From: a virus
Length of the DNA stretch: 64,000 nt
Virus record (IMG/VR): IMGVR_UViG_3300048838_001106
Coordinates: 62,001-126,000 of that record
Reading direction: 5' to 3' (one strand)
Position 1 is the stretch's first letter. Every line of letters starts with the position of its first letter. This document shows, piece by piece, positions 24,506-31,695 of the stretch. The notes below the pieces were generated by a model, which did not search any database, was not told the DNA's origin, and was given only the letters and a program-made list of their open reading frames with translations. A program made the position numbers and the translations under genes.

Positions 24506-24703
24506 ATGAAAGCATCGAACATTGTCTCAAAAATCACTGAGTGTGCTGACCTCGAAGAAGCAGGGCCGTACATCGCCGCCGCGCTGGTGTACGGCGTAAA
24601 CAATATGGATGGCGGGGATTTCCTGGACCTCACGTCGAAGCTCGCTGACGAGCTCACGTTTCATTTCGATGTGCCAGACATGGCAGAGGTTCTCGATGAG
24701 TAG
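24506..24703 (+). CDS. Small hypothetical protein
   Basis: A 65-residue acidic helical protein, start behind AGAGGTGAC. No motif. Confidence 0.75.
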   Translation: MKASNIVSKITECADLEEAGPYIAAALVYGVNNMDGGDFLDLTSKLADELTFHFDVPDMAEVLDE

Positions 24704-25013
24704 CAACGAGTTAGACGCCACGTCAGGCGCAAAGTTTGACACCGGAAAACTCCGGCCTTCTTTGCTGCCCTGGGGGTCTGTCATGGAAATCGTCAAAGTC
24801 CTGGAATTCGGCGCTAAAAAGTACGATGTTGATAACTGGCAACGTGTGCCTCAGGCCAGGACACGATATTTTGACGCCGCTATGCGCCACCTCATTGCGT
24901 GGCGCGAGGGTGAGAGCACCGACGCAGAATCAGGACTGCACCACCTTGCACATGCTGGGTGTTGCGTCGTGTTTTTGCTGTGGTTTGAGTTGACCTTAGC
25001 GGAAAACACATGA
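24696..25013 (+). CDS. dATP/dGTP pyrophosphohydrolase-like (DUF5664, MazG-related)
   Basis: A 105-residue protein. SGAKFDTGKLRPSLLPWG (about residues 9-26), then VLEFGAKKYDVDNW, RYFDAAMRHLIAW, and GLHHLAHAGCCVVFLLW reproduce the conserved order of the DUF5664 / dATP-dGTP diphosphohydrolase N-terminal family found in many phages. These all-alpha, MazG-related proteins are thought to hydrolyse (d)NTPs to (d)NMP and pyrophosphate and so shape the nucleotide pool. Overlaps both neighbours by 4-8 bases. Confidence 0.88.
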   Translation: MSSNELDATSGAKFDTGKLRPSLLPWGSVMEIVKVLEFGAKKYDVDNWQRVPQARTRYFDAAMRHLIAWREGESTDAESGLHHLAHAGCCVVFLLWFELTLAENT

Positions 25014-25717
25014 AGTTCATTTGCATGTCAGATACCCACATGGAACATGAACACGCCGCGCGATATCCAGCAGATTGTCTGTTACATGCAGGAGATCTCA
25101 CGGAGTACGGTACCCGCGCTGAAGTAGACGAGGTGGAAAGATGGCTTAAGGATCTTCCGTATGCGCGCAAAGTAGTCATTGCGGGCAATCATGATTTGTG
25201 TTGTGACCCAAACCCGCAGAACCTCGTTCGACTGATTCCTGATTCCCACCTAGATGGGTACATGCCTGAGGGTAATTACAGGATCAAACATTGCACCTAT
25301 CTCAATCAGCAGGTGACGCAGGTTGGCGAGTACAAAATTTGGGGGGAACCAAGGCAACCTGAATTTTGGAAATGGGCTTTCAATGTCCGACGCCCCCAGA
25401 TGAAATGGCAGGTATGGTCTAAAGTCCCAAAAGACATAGATATCATGATCACGCACGGCCCTCCCTATAAGGCGGGGGATAGAACCCCAACTGAAAATGC
25501 AGGGTGCCCTGCGCAGTTAGAAATGATATCGGATCACCCAACCTTGAAACTTGTAGTGTGCGGGCATATCCATTCTGGGTATGGTGTATACAACCTGGTC
25601 AAAAGGAATGGTCAGCGATGTCTTGTAGTTAACGCGGCCCTGCTGCAAAACGATTTCTCCCTTCGAGAGCCTATCCTCATTGAGGCTAAGGGTGATGACT
25701 TTCAGAGGGTGTTCTAA
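25010..25717 (+). CDS. Calcineurin-like metallophosphoesterase
   Basis: A 235-residue protein with all metal-binding motifs: SDTH (Asp8, His10), HAGD (Asp29), GNHD (Asn60, His61), ITHGPP, and CGHIHSG near residue 185. This subgroup resembles the MPPED-type phosphoesterases. The substrate is unknown; cyclic nucleotides or nucleic acid ends are possible. It overlaps the DUF5664 gene by ATGA and is the last gene before the tRNA. Confidence 0.95.
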   Translation: MKFICMSDTHMEHEHAARYPADCLLHAGDLTEYGTRAEVDEVERWLKDLPYARKVVIAGNHDLCCDPNPQNLVRLIPDSHLDGYMPEGNYRIKHCTYLNQQVTQVGEYKIWGEPRQPEFWKWAFNVRRPQMKWQVWSKVPKDIDIMITHGPPYKAGDRTPTENAGCPAQLEMISDHPTLKLVVCGHIHSGYGVYNLVKRNGQRCLVVNAALLQNDFSLREPILIEAKGDDFQRVF

Positions 25718-25764: not shown

Positions 25765-25838
25765 GCGCCCATAGCTCAGTTGGTCAGAGCTGCCGGCTCA
25801 TAACCGGTTGGTCCCAGGTTCGAACCCTGGTGGGCGCA
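25765..25838 (+). tRNA. tRNA with CAU anticodon (Met or Ile2)
   Basis: A full cloverleaf of 74 bases: 7-bp acceptor (GCGCCCA/TGGGCGC), D arm, anticodon stem GCCGG/CCGGT with loop CTCATAA (anticodon CAT at 25799-25801), T arm CCAGG-TTCGAAC-CCTGG, discriminator A. CCA is not encoded. CAU may mean elongator Met or lysidine-modified Ile2; sequence alone does not settle it. A tract of T (25839-25848) follows directly. Confidence 0.95.
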
Positions 25839-26184: not shown

Positions 26185-26987
26185 GAACACTGCGAAGCAT
26201 TTGCATGGCCCTTCTCAAAGAAGACTTAAGGAAGTTCAATGCACAGAAAGCTGTAGCCAAGGAAGGCATGAAACAAGCGCAGAGAACATGCGATAGCGCG
26301 CTAAAGTGGAAGCACTATCCAGATTTCTGGGGGAGCCATGACAATCTTCGCACAGTTCACCTGGCGATAGCATGGTTTCGCGGGCGAACACCGATTGAAG
26401 CGGAGCGAAACCACTCGAAACACCACGAAGACTACAACACGAGAAAAATGCAACGAGCAGCGCTGCACCTCGTTGGGTACACACTGGAGAGGGCAAGAAA
26501 AATGCATGAAATCGAATTGAAAGCAAAGATACGAGCAGAAAAGAATCACACCATGATTTCCGTACCGATTGTAATGAAATCAAGACCTTATGTATGCGAA
26601 AACGACGACACACGTTACTACCACGTAAACACCGAAGCACCCGATGTGGCGGCCTTCCTCCAAGGACACGATGAAGATGTGGTACAAGCATTTGTACGCG
26701 TCATCATGCCCGACGATCTCGAATCCCTCATCAATTTCGACCCTGAGTCGTTCTACAACGTGCCTCCAGGAATATACATCTGGCGCGGCTCGGCTGTCAT
26801 AGACGAGGACGGCATCGAGTGCATGGTCGACTCTTTCACGCCACAGCCTGCATTTGAAACAACATTTCACGAGGTGATGGACGGCGGCATTGGAAACCCA
26901 AAAGCCGTGGCCAGACTCGTGCTTAATCACAAGGAAGACAACGATGCAACCGAAGACAATAATGATCTTGAGCGGGGGGACGTTTAG
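26181..26987 (+). CDS. Hypothetical protein
   Basis: A 268-residue protein, coupled to the upstream gene by ATGA. Basic helical N-terminal half (RKFNAQKAVAKEGMKQAQR) and an acidic C-terminus. No motif recognised. The last 44 bases overlap the next gene. Confidence 0.8.
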   Translation: MRTLRSICMALLKEDLRKFNAQKAVAKEGMKQAQRTCDSALKWKHYPDFWGSHDNLRTVHLAIAWFRGRTPIEAERNHSKHHEDYNTRKMQRAALHLVGYTLERARKMHEIELKAKIRAEKNHTMISVPIVMKSRPYVCENDDTRYYHVNTEAPDVAAFLQGHDEDVVQAFVRVIMPDDLESLINFDPESFYNVPPGIYIWRGSAVIDEDGIECMVDSFTPQPAFETTFHEVMDGGIGNPKAVARLVLNHKEDNDATEDNNDLERGDV

Positions 26988-28176
26988 TCCAATCAAAGCA
27001 CATCTGTCACTCGCAGCCCCCGCCTTCGGCAACACAGCTACTACGCTGAGTTCCCTGTTCTACCAACACAAAGCACTGGAAATGGCTGTAGAGACCTACT
27101 GGACTCAAATGGCCTATCCGGGCACAACCCCCATTCTGCGCACAAACAAAGACGTTGAGAATCTTGTCGACAAGTGGATTGCAGACCCAAATGTCAAAGT
27201 CATCATCATGAACGCAGCGCTGTGCGACTTCGACGCGACGGTGGTCGGGGTACCAGACGACGTCAAGCGTCTAGACAGCAGTAAGAAGTACCTTGTTGAG
27301 CTGACGCCGGCCCCAAAGATTTTGAGTAAGATTCGAAAGACGAGGAAAGACATCTTTCTGGTGGGGTTTAAGACGACAGCAGGGGCAACACCTGAAGAGC
27401 AGTTCAACAAAGGCTTGAAGCTCATGAAAGAGACGTCGTGCAATCTGGTCTTTGCAAATGACGTTGTCACACGACGCAACTTTGTTATCACTCCTGAGGA
27501 AGTGCGATACGCAGAAGGAGTAGGCGATGAAGCCAGGGATAACGCGCTCAAAGAGCTCGTAGACATGATTCTTCTTCGAACCAACCTGTCATTCACACGA
27601 TCGACAGTTATTGCAGGAGACCCTGTACCCTGGAACTCTCCCGATGTCCCAGAGTCGCTACGCACAGTGGTAGACCATATGATAGCCAGGAACGCGTACA
27701 AACCGGGCCCAACAGGTGCCACGGTAGGGCACTTCGCATGTAAGGTTGGCCCAACCACGTTCCTGACGTCACGACGAAAGACGAACTTCAACCAACTCCA
27801 CGACATTGGCCTGGTCAGAATCGAGACAGACGGCCCAGACACTGTGATTGCCTACGGCAGCAAACCAAGCGTTGGAGGACAGTCGCAGCGTATTATCTTT
27901 GAAGAGCATGACGGGCTGGACTGCATTGTCCACGCACACGTGCCGCTTCGCGAAGACCATCCTGATGACATTCCTGTGGTGTCGCAGCGCGCATACGAGT
28001 GTGGGTCACACGAGTGCGGGCAGAATACATCAAACGGGCTTAAGCAGTTTGGCAACCTCAAAGCTGTCATGCTCGACAAGCACGGCCCTAACGTTGTTTT
28101 TCATCGCGACACAGACCCACAAGAAGTCATTGATTTTATTGAGCGAAACTTTGATCTGACCAAGAAGACCGCATGA
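26944..28176 (+). CDS. CoaB-like (DFP) domain fused to class II aldolase-like domain
   Basis: A 410-residue protein from ATG 26944 behind AAGGAAG. Residues 1-215 look like the flavoprotein-family DFP/CoaB domain (phosphopantothenate-cysteine ligase): ILSGGTFSPIKAHLSLAAPA, then IIMNAALCDFDA (89-98), PAPKILSKIR (122-131), FLVGFK, and LVFANDV (168-174). Residues about 250-410 look like a class II aldolase/adducin domain: CIVHAHVP with His330 and His332, and VMLDKHGPNVVF with His380. Known CoaB acts in coenzyme A synthesis; class II aldolases cleave or isomerise phosphorylated sugars. The fused activity is unknown and both assignments are from motifs only. Confidence 0.82.
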   Translation: MQPKTIMILSGGTFSPIKAHLSLAAPAFGNTATTLSSLFYQHKALEMAVETYWTQMAYPGTTPILRTNKDVENLVDKWIADPNVKVIIMNAALCDFDATVVGVPDDVKRLDSSKKYLVELTPAPKILSKIRKTRKDIFLVGFKTTAGATPEEQFNKGLKLMKETSCNLVFANDVVTRRNFVITPEEVRYAEGVGDEARDNALKELVDMILLRTNLSFTRSTVIAGDPVPWNSPDVPESLRTVVDHMIARNAYKPGPTGATVGHFACKVGPTTFLTSRRKTNFNQLHDIGLVRIETDGPDTVIAYGSKPSVGGQSQRIIFEEHDGLDCIVHAHVPLREDHPDDIPVVSQRAYECGSHECGQNTSNGLKQFGNLKAVMLDKHGPNVVFHRDTDPQEVIDFIERNFDLTKKTA

Positions 28177-31170: not shown

Positions 31171-31695
31171 ATGTTTGTCATTCTTATGCAAGGACTTCCA
31201 GGCTCGGGTAAGTCCACAACCGTCGAGGGCCTTCGCCAGGCCCTTGAACAAAGTGACTACAAAGTAGTCGTCGTCTCCGCAGACGACTACTTTGTAGACG
31301 CATCTGGCGTCTACAACTTCGATCCGTCGAAGATCGTAGACGCCCACGCCCAGTGCCAGCTGAAATTTCAGGTGGCACTGGATAGTGATGAAGTAGAGTG
31401 CATCATCGTCGACAACACCAACACTCAGTGTTGGGAAGCGAAGCCATACGTGGAGATGGCTTCGCGAGTCGACTGCGCCGTCATCGTCGTTGAGGTCCAC
31501 ACAGACCTCGACGACGAGGCGCTCGCCGCGCGTAACACGCACGGCGTACCCGTGGGAGCCATTGCAGCCATGCGAGCACGCATGGAGCCCCTCTGCAGAG
31601 ACGATGCTCCCAGCATCGTCATGGGAGGAACGGTGGTCTCTAGACCCATCGCTACTTCCCGTATCCTGGCAAGCAAGGCTCCCTGGGAGTCTTGA
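31171..31695 (+). CDS. P-loop kinase, N4BP2-like
   Basis: A 174-residue protein. Walker A GLPGSGKST (residues 8-16), SADDYFVD near 36, IVDNTNTQCWEAKPYVEMA (about 80-98) and a late VPVGAIAAMRARM match the AAA/polynucleotide-kinase-like group typified by the kinase domain of N4BP2. Substrates may be 5' ends of nucleic acid or small molecules. Monocistronic between promoter P1 and a terminator. Confidence 0.88.
   Translation: MFVILMQGLPGSGKSTTVEGLRQALEQSDYKVVVVSADDYFVDASGVYNFDPSKIVDAHAQCQLKFQVALDSDEVECIIVDNTNTQCWEAKPYVEMASRVDCAVIVVEVHTDLDDEALAARNTHGVPVGAIAAMRARMEPLCRDDAPSIVMGGTVVSRPIATSRILASKAPWES

Follow-up and report, generated by a model that had tools for sequence, protein, structure and literature searches.

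A CoaB-like and class II aldolase-like fusion protein of huge phages with a gene context that points to coenzyme A

What might be done by a viral protein that joins a CoaB-like domain to a class II aldolase-like domain, and in which pathway? One gene of this kind lies in the window, by which we mean the whole stretch of 64,000 nucleotides analysed here, part of a virus record of 156,269 bases (Table 1). A preliminary description made from the letters alone proposed a phage-encoded pair of these domains that no described enzyme is known to combine, with nucleotide or sugar modification as a possible role. A literature search found no description of a CoaB-aldolase domain pair, its coverage being incomplete and absence therefore unproven; searches on CPR or phage coenzyme A (CoA) genes gave general CoA or unrelated papers among those listed, none of which named the fusion.

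Matches elsewhere in the window include a Dda-like helicase, an endolysin and tail-fibre-like proteins. Near the fusion gene lie a dATP/dGTP diphosphohydrolase domain (24609-25013, +), a calcineurin-like phosphoesterase (25010-25717, +) and an AAA_33 kinase-like gene (31171-31695, +). The sole tRNA gene of the window, tRNA-Met (CAT) at 25765-25838 (+), is 1.1 kb upstream.

Table 1. Features of the fusion gene and of its protein, with coordinates in the window
Feature	Coordinates	Strand	Basis or remark
CoaB-like / class II aldolase-like fusion gene	26944..28176	+	complete ORF, ATG start, 410 aa; full-length relatives found
Probable ribosome-binding site AAGGAAG	26931..26937	+	6 bases ahead of the fusion-gene ATG
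Upstream ORF, 268 aa	26181..26987	+	overlaps fusion-gene start; no Pfam match
Downstream ORF, 98 aa	28173..28469	+	start within ATGA overlap with fusion stop; no Pfam match
CoaB-fold domain, residues 2-216	26947..27591	+	Pfam DFP, structural match, PHROG 35624
H20, L21 and A25 in signature HLALAAPA/FG, replacing CoaB R207 and N211	27001..27018	+	74-sequence alignment, hhalign
D95, equivalent of the CoaB cation-binding Asp	27226..27228	+	74/74, hhalign-aligned
R109, at the place of the first Lys of the CoaB K-X-K-K loop	27268..27270	+	Arg 73/74, Lys 1
Class II aldolase-fold domain, residues 231-407	27634..28164	+	Pfam Aldolase_II, FucA structures Z 13-14
G311, at the position of the aldolase catalytic Glu/Asp	27874..27876	+	Gly 74/74
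H330-x-H332, two metal ligands by homology	27931..27939	+	74/74
C353-G-S-H-E-C358 motif	28000..28017	+	C353 and C358 74/74; H356 72/74
H380, third metal ligand by homology	28081..28083	+	74/74

Folds and active-site residues

Both halves belong to the folds first named for them. Residues 2-177 match Pfam DFP (PF04127) with 48.7 bits against a cut-off of 22 (E 1e-12), residues 6-189 match the PHROG 35624 profile (E 1.4e-44), and the motifs named for both halves in the preliminary description are present. An AlphaFold2 model of the protein, built from 74 sequences, has a pLDDT of 95.7 and a pTM of 0.91. Model residues 2-214 match the CoaB structures 2gk4 (Z 22.1, rmsd 2.6 over 193 residues) and 1u7z (Z 19.2). 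Similarly, residues 248-334 match Pfam Aldolase_II (PF00596) with 31.1 bits (cut-off 22.2, E 2.7e-7), and the modelled fold of residues 231-404 resembles that of L-fuculose-1-phosphate aldolase (1dzx, Z 14.1, rmsd 3.2 over 156 residues). The flavoprotein decarboxylase domain (PF02441) has no match in the fusion protein and none in 34 virus records.

Residue counts given below come from the 74-sequence alignment, which represents 76 clusters and leaves out L014 (from another tool) and L066 (a long open frame). L011 and L012 were rejected as relatives, being chance matches (a helicase-like ORF by eye). CoaB residues were placed by hhalign to CoaB (97.4%, E 1.5e-11). The GGT loop and the N-D motif are retained. 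Of the K-X-K-K triphosphate loop, the first position alone is basic throughout. The column of CoaB N211, an Asn of the cysteine-coupling half reaction, holds Ala, Thr, Met or Ser and never Asn (0/74). The column of R207 (M. smegmatis numbering) holds Leu, Phe, Met or Ile, with Arg in 0 of the 74. R207 of M. smegmatis CoaB is described as critical for the step from the acyl-CMP intermediate to the cysteine product (PMC7794376). New relative to CoaB are H20, found in every sequence (74/74), and FK(T)T at residues 142-145 (Lys143 in 73/74, Thr144 in 66/74). Judged from the alignment, the predicted metal/nucleotide (activation) side of the CoaB half is kept and the cysteine-coupling Arg and Asn are gone. 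The CoaB-like site proposed at the outset is supported at D95 and R109, with its Lys loop reduced.

Residues of the aldolase half were placed by HMMER alignments to 2irp and 1k0w, which are weak (E 0.04-0.17) with the KPS and HxH blocks plain. G311 aligns with the E of KPSAET (2irp) and the D of KPSSD (1k0w), the position of the catalytic acid (E73 in FucA). R278, Q315 and H263 are also invariant, and the C353-G-S-H-E-C358 motif is a possible extra metal or redox site. The label of class II aldolase-like therefore holds for the fold and the three-His site but not for the catalytic acid.

Taken together, the protein is not a CoaB or an aldolase of the standard kind: both folds are present, and the residues tested for membership differ. 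Because catalytic or coupling residues are lost in both halves, the textbook reaction should be assumed for neither.

Distribution and movement of the gene

Scanning IMG/VR with a profile of 12 rows returned 122 relatives, and among the best 80 of the 122 some lie on contigs longer than 500 kb. A search of 50,697 phage records found the full fusion in one annotated record, LR756511 (595 kb), and the aldolase half in none of the others. The CoaB half alone is present in 40 further phage records, chiefly of Pseudomonas Otagovirus and Caulobacter phages (two, of Methanothermobacter psiM100, at E 8e-4 only), and on 4 Variovorax plasmids. No aldolase gene was seen beside the stand-alone phage genes in the adjacent genes examined. 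These stand-alone phage and plasmid proteins carry H20, D95, R109, K125, FKTT, N172-D173 and N179 in 6 of 6 rows, in a residue table that does not use L131 and uses L212 solely at columns after its clipped part. A tree test of their derivation by loss of the aldolase half gave a p-AU of 0.40. In the Otagovirus phiPsa374, a DUF4326 gene (L017, 4684-4992, +) lies immediately upstream of the stand-alone gene.

The description as phage-encoded is borne out by the virus record and its viral relatives, but the gene is not confined to phages: 13 fusion loci lie in genome assemblies. Two are from Paceibacterota, three from Saccharimonadia/Saccharibacteria, four from Alphaproteobacteria, and one each from an untyped bacterium, Armatimonadetes, Actinomycetes and Saprospiraceae. 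Some of the 13 may be phage contigs; by eye, housekeeping genes surround the fusion in, for example, L022, L030 and L032. Within bacterial classes the gene is rare. In the class of G001, 3 of 244 genomes carry it (two already known, the third being G160). In the class of G003 and in that of G009, a full-length fusion was found in 1 of 285 genomes, the query itself in each case, with a match to the CoaB half alone in 2 and 4 others, respectively. When 76 proteins are placed in a tree, its 13 cellular rows require six label changes among viral rows, and the starred branches force at least two, which indicates repeated transfer of the gene between viruses and cells.

Among the first 12 loci, no conserved viral neighbourhood was found except between L004 and L009 and in a few pairs. 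The best recurring neighbours over 76 loci are a 145-aa family (10 loci) and an ADP-ribosylglycohydrolase-like family (9 loci). The former (L078, 9760-10197, and nine other loci) occurs in viruses and Alphaproteobacteria assemblies and has no Pfam or NCBIfam match; the latter, named by eye, is in the fusion flanks of L004, L009, L034, L035, L071, L078, L090, L093 and L104.

Coenzyme A genes near the fusion and across genomes

The gene context of the fusion points to coenzyme A, a link that is new here. In G160, a genome of the Saccharimonadia class, the fusion (L109, 8407-9591) lies directly against a canonical CoaB gene, which in turn overlaps CoaC; HD-CoaD-CoaE follows 6 kb on, and TrmB-type, HD, CoaD and CoaE genes all lie within about 9 kb. 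This fusion has a decayed CoaB half, and Pfam detects the aldolase half alone. PF04127 exceeds its cut-off in 1 of 244 genomes of the class, namely G160. In genome G009 (L031), where the fusion is the sole CoaB-family match and a search for CoaC found none, a CoaD-CoaE protein is encoded 2.2 kb away. Phage L059 has a CoaD-CoaE gene of 389 aa on the same strand as the fusion and ending 39 bp upstream of it; an HD-type gene also precedes the fusion.

A TrmB-type gene accompanies 7 of 7 CPR-type fusion loci, a count made partly circular by a profile built from fusion loci, as well as 6 of 8 CoaD loci and 4 of 23 CoaB loci; with this profile no such gene turned up at 12 other loci or at 63 viral loci. 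CoaD loci and other loci differ in this respect (6/8 versus 0/12, p 0.0007), with control loci that include L244-L246, from genomes with CoaB-family matches, L244 itself bearing a weak CoaD-HD gene. An Amidohydro_2 gene adjoins the TrmB-type gene and the fusion in L023 and is present at 8 of 23 CoaB loci, in a search whose seeds were themselves CoaB loci in 3 of 4 cases.

Several further arrangements were seen. Rows of Amidohydro_2, CoaB and CoaC occur in L207, L213, L215, L222, L223 and L112, and L222 and L215 have an extra degenerate CoaB-aldolase stretch after CoaC or fused with it. Huge phages encode COASY-like CoaD-CoaE fusions in L059 (6792-7958, +, 389 aa) and L124 (1486-2616, +, 376 aa), both with an HD-type gene just upstream (labelled by eye; the L059 protein has no Pfam match), and a 371-aa CoaD with an HD-type domain in L135 (1123-2238, +). 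A CoaD-CoaE scan of viral contigs returned the query contig alone.

Across virus genomes the link to CoA is weak. CoaD exceeds its cut-off in 8 of 34 fusion-bearing virus records, picked from known ones and not de-duplicated, versus 1 of 20 Thg1-bait control records longer than 100 kb, whose fusion status was unscreened (p 0.13); at E<=1e-20 the counts are 8/34 versus 4/20 (p 1.0). There was no clear genome-wide enrichment of CoaD relative to this control at either threshold. Of 63 viral loci, 1 has CoaD or CoaE within its flanks. The fusion-bearing G001-G005 have no CoaC and no CoaD over cut-off, and neither CoaC nor CoaD was found in the window's own record, which may be a fragment.

In the class of G009, the co-occurrence of CoaD with CoaB-family genes is threshold-dependent (8/18 versus 1/40 at E<=1e-20, p 0.0002; 2/18 versus 1/40 at the curated cut-off, p 0.22). 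A search for PanC found it in none of 26 small CPR-type genomes but in all 4 of the larger ones. Its absence fits an alternative phosphopantothenate route and equally fits vitamin uptake.

Proposed function, alternatives and known systems

Since the fusion lies among coenzyme A genes in bacteria, it probably acts in making or handling that cofactor. The reading we favour, to which we give slightly less than an even chance, makes the protein a two-domain enzyme of pantetheine-type (coenzyme A) metabolism, whose single gene is mobile and is carried by huge phages. The N-terminal half would bind a nucleoside triphosphate and a metal ion at D95 and R109 and, as in CoaB, could activate the carboxylate of a phosphopantoyl-type substrate to an acyl-nucleotide. 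It would then hand the acyl group to an acceptor other than cysteine, since the two residues that recruit cysteine (Arg and Asn) have been lost and the invariant H20 and the FKTT motif are new; the best guess is another small amine, for example beta-alanine. The C-terminal half may hold a divalent metal on its three His; its chemistry would dispense with the usual aldolase Glu and would build or reshape the carbon skeleton of that substrate. We infer the substrates, the acceptor and the benefit for the phage from the observed fold, residues, distribution and neighbourhoods. The decayed CoaB half beside a canonical CoaB in G160, together with the phage N-terminal halves that lack an aldolase half, suggests that the halves can work apart.

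A wider form of this proposal would have CPR-type bacteria and huge phages share a previously unrecognised CoA module. The fusion of a CoaB-derived ligase with an aldolase-fold enzyme would make or rebuild phosphopantothenate or a CoA analogue without PanB and PanC, in cells under a TrmB-type regulator of its own, and phages would use the fusion, in some cases along with a one-piece CoaD-CoaE, to gain control of the host CoA pool. As a whole this scheme is unlikely.

Three alternatives bear on the favoured reading. The substrate of both halves might be a small molecule unrelated to the CoA pathway, such as a nucleotide, a sugar phosphate or a signal. Such a role would accord with the lack of a conserved neighbour among viral loci, with the ADP-ribosylglycohydrolase-like genes (by eye) that flank 9 of 76 loci, and with the absence of other CoA genes from some fusion-bearing genomes; given that CoA genes adjoin the fusion in G160, L031 and L059, we consider it rather unlikely. 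The cellular neighbours likewise tell against the nucleotide or sugar modification suggested at first.

A replacement of the bifunctional CoaBC is suggested by G009 and phage G560, which have the fusion and CoaD-CoaE with no CoaC match, and by the lack of any other CoaB match in G009. The N-terminal half would make phosphopantothenoylcysteine and the C-terminal half would decarboxylate it without flavin, feeding CoaD-CoaE. This is quite improbable, as 74 of 74 sequences lack the Arg and Asn needed for the cysteine step and the G160 fusion adjoins complete CoaB and CoaC genes; moreover, we know of no flavin-free route for this decarboxylation. The loss of textbook catalytic residues from both halves would also suit a binding or regulatory protein with no enzymatic activity, a sponge or sensor for a nucleotide or CoA precursor, as would the occurrence of the N-terminal half without its partner in most of 41 matching phage records and on plasmids. 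The new invariant polar residues, the three-His site and the CGSHxC motif, conserved in nearly all 74 sequences, seem to go beyond the needs of a sponge, and none of the PADLOC models matches the fusion, leaving such a role quite improbable as well. A reading as a defence system was rejected on the same PADLOC result.

Under the CoA-metabolism reading, a conserved unnamed protein on at least 122 viral contigs gains its first functional lead. If the CoA link is true, it reveals both a way in which phages steer a cofactor pool of the host and a missing or alternative route to CoA in bacteria regarded as dependent on other organisms for cofactors. The clusters of TrmB-type, CoaB, CoaC, Amidohydro_2, HD and CoaD-CoaE genes offer a ready list of partners.

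Compared with CoaB, the N-terminal half has the same Rossmann-type fold, metal Asp, GGT loop and N-D motif, but R207 and N211 are replaced by Leu and Ala and the K-X-K-K loop is down to a single Arg. At 46.9 bits, the fusion is also far below the CoaBC equivalog cut-off of 219.7. The PHROG 35624 genes of Otagovirus and Bertelyvirus phages share the signature residues of the N-terminal half and form one clade with it (100/99), but they lack the aldolase half, and none is present in the adjacent genes examined. The C-terminal half shares with the class II aldolase/adducin family (FucA, AraD, MtnB, OtnC) the fold and the His-x-His ... His metal site, and differs by Gly for Glu/Asp, a GH for a GN loop and the added CGSHxC motif.

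A second architecture joins the same domains. In the class of G009, CoaB-family matches exceed the cut-off in 17 of 285 genomes, that of G009 itself being the fusion. G647 encodes a 690-aa protein with CoaB, class II aldolase and NUDIX domains, and G827 and G799 encode similar proteins of 679 and 663 aa (domains by eye). Proteins of this kind, possibly trifunctional CoA-related enzymes, are encoded at L204 (1222-3294, +), L212 and L224, in genomes of about 1 Mb. The proteins of G647, G827 and G799 share with the phage fusion the order of the halves and a PCGS/T motif, and the phage profile aligns to the G647 protein collinearly along both halves (359 columns, E 1.4e-17). Unlike the fusion, G647 and G827 retain the CoaB Arg, Asn and Lys, all three retain the aldolase acid (KPSID) where the fusion has Gly, and a NUDIX domain follows. 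With four divergent CoaB-aldolase rows left aside, the tree places G647 and G827, by their CoaB halves, among ordinary CoaB and gives the phage halves a clade to themselves; with the CoaB halves in different clades, no common origin is claimed. That CoaB is repeatedly paired with an aldolase-fold domain, whether fused or adjacent, is nonetheless evidence for a shared pathway.
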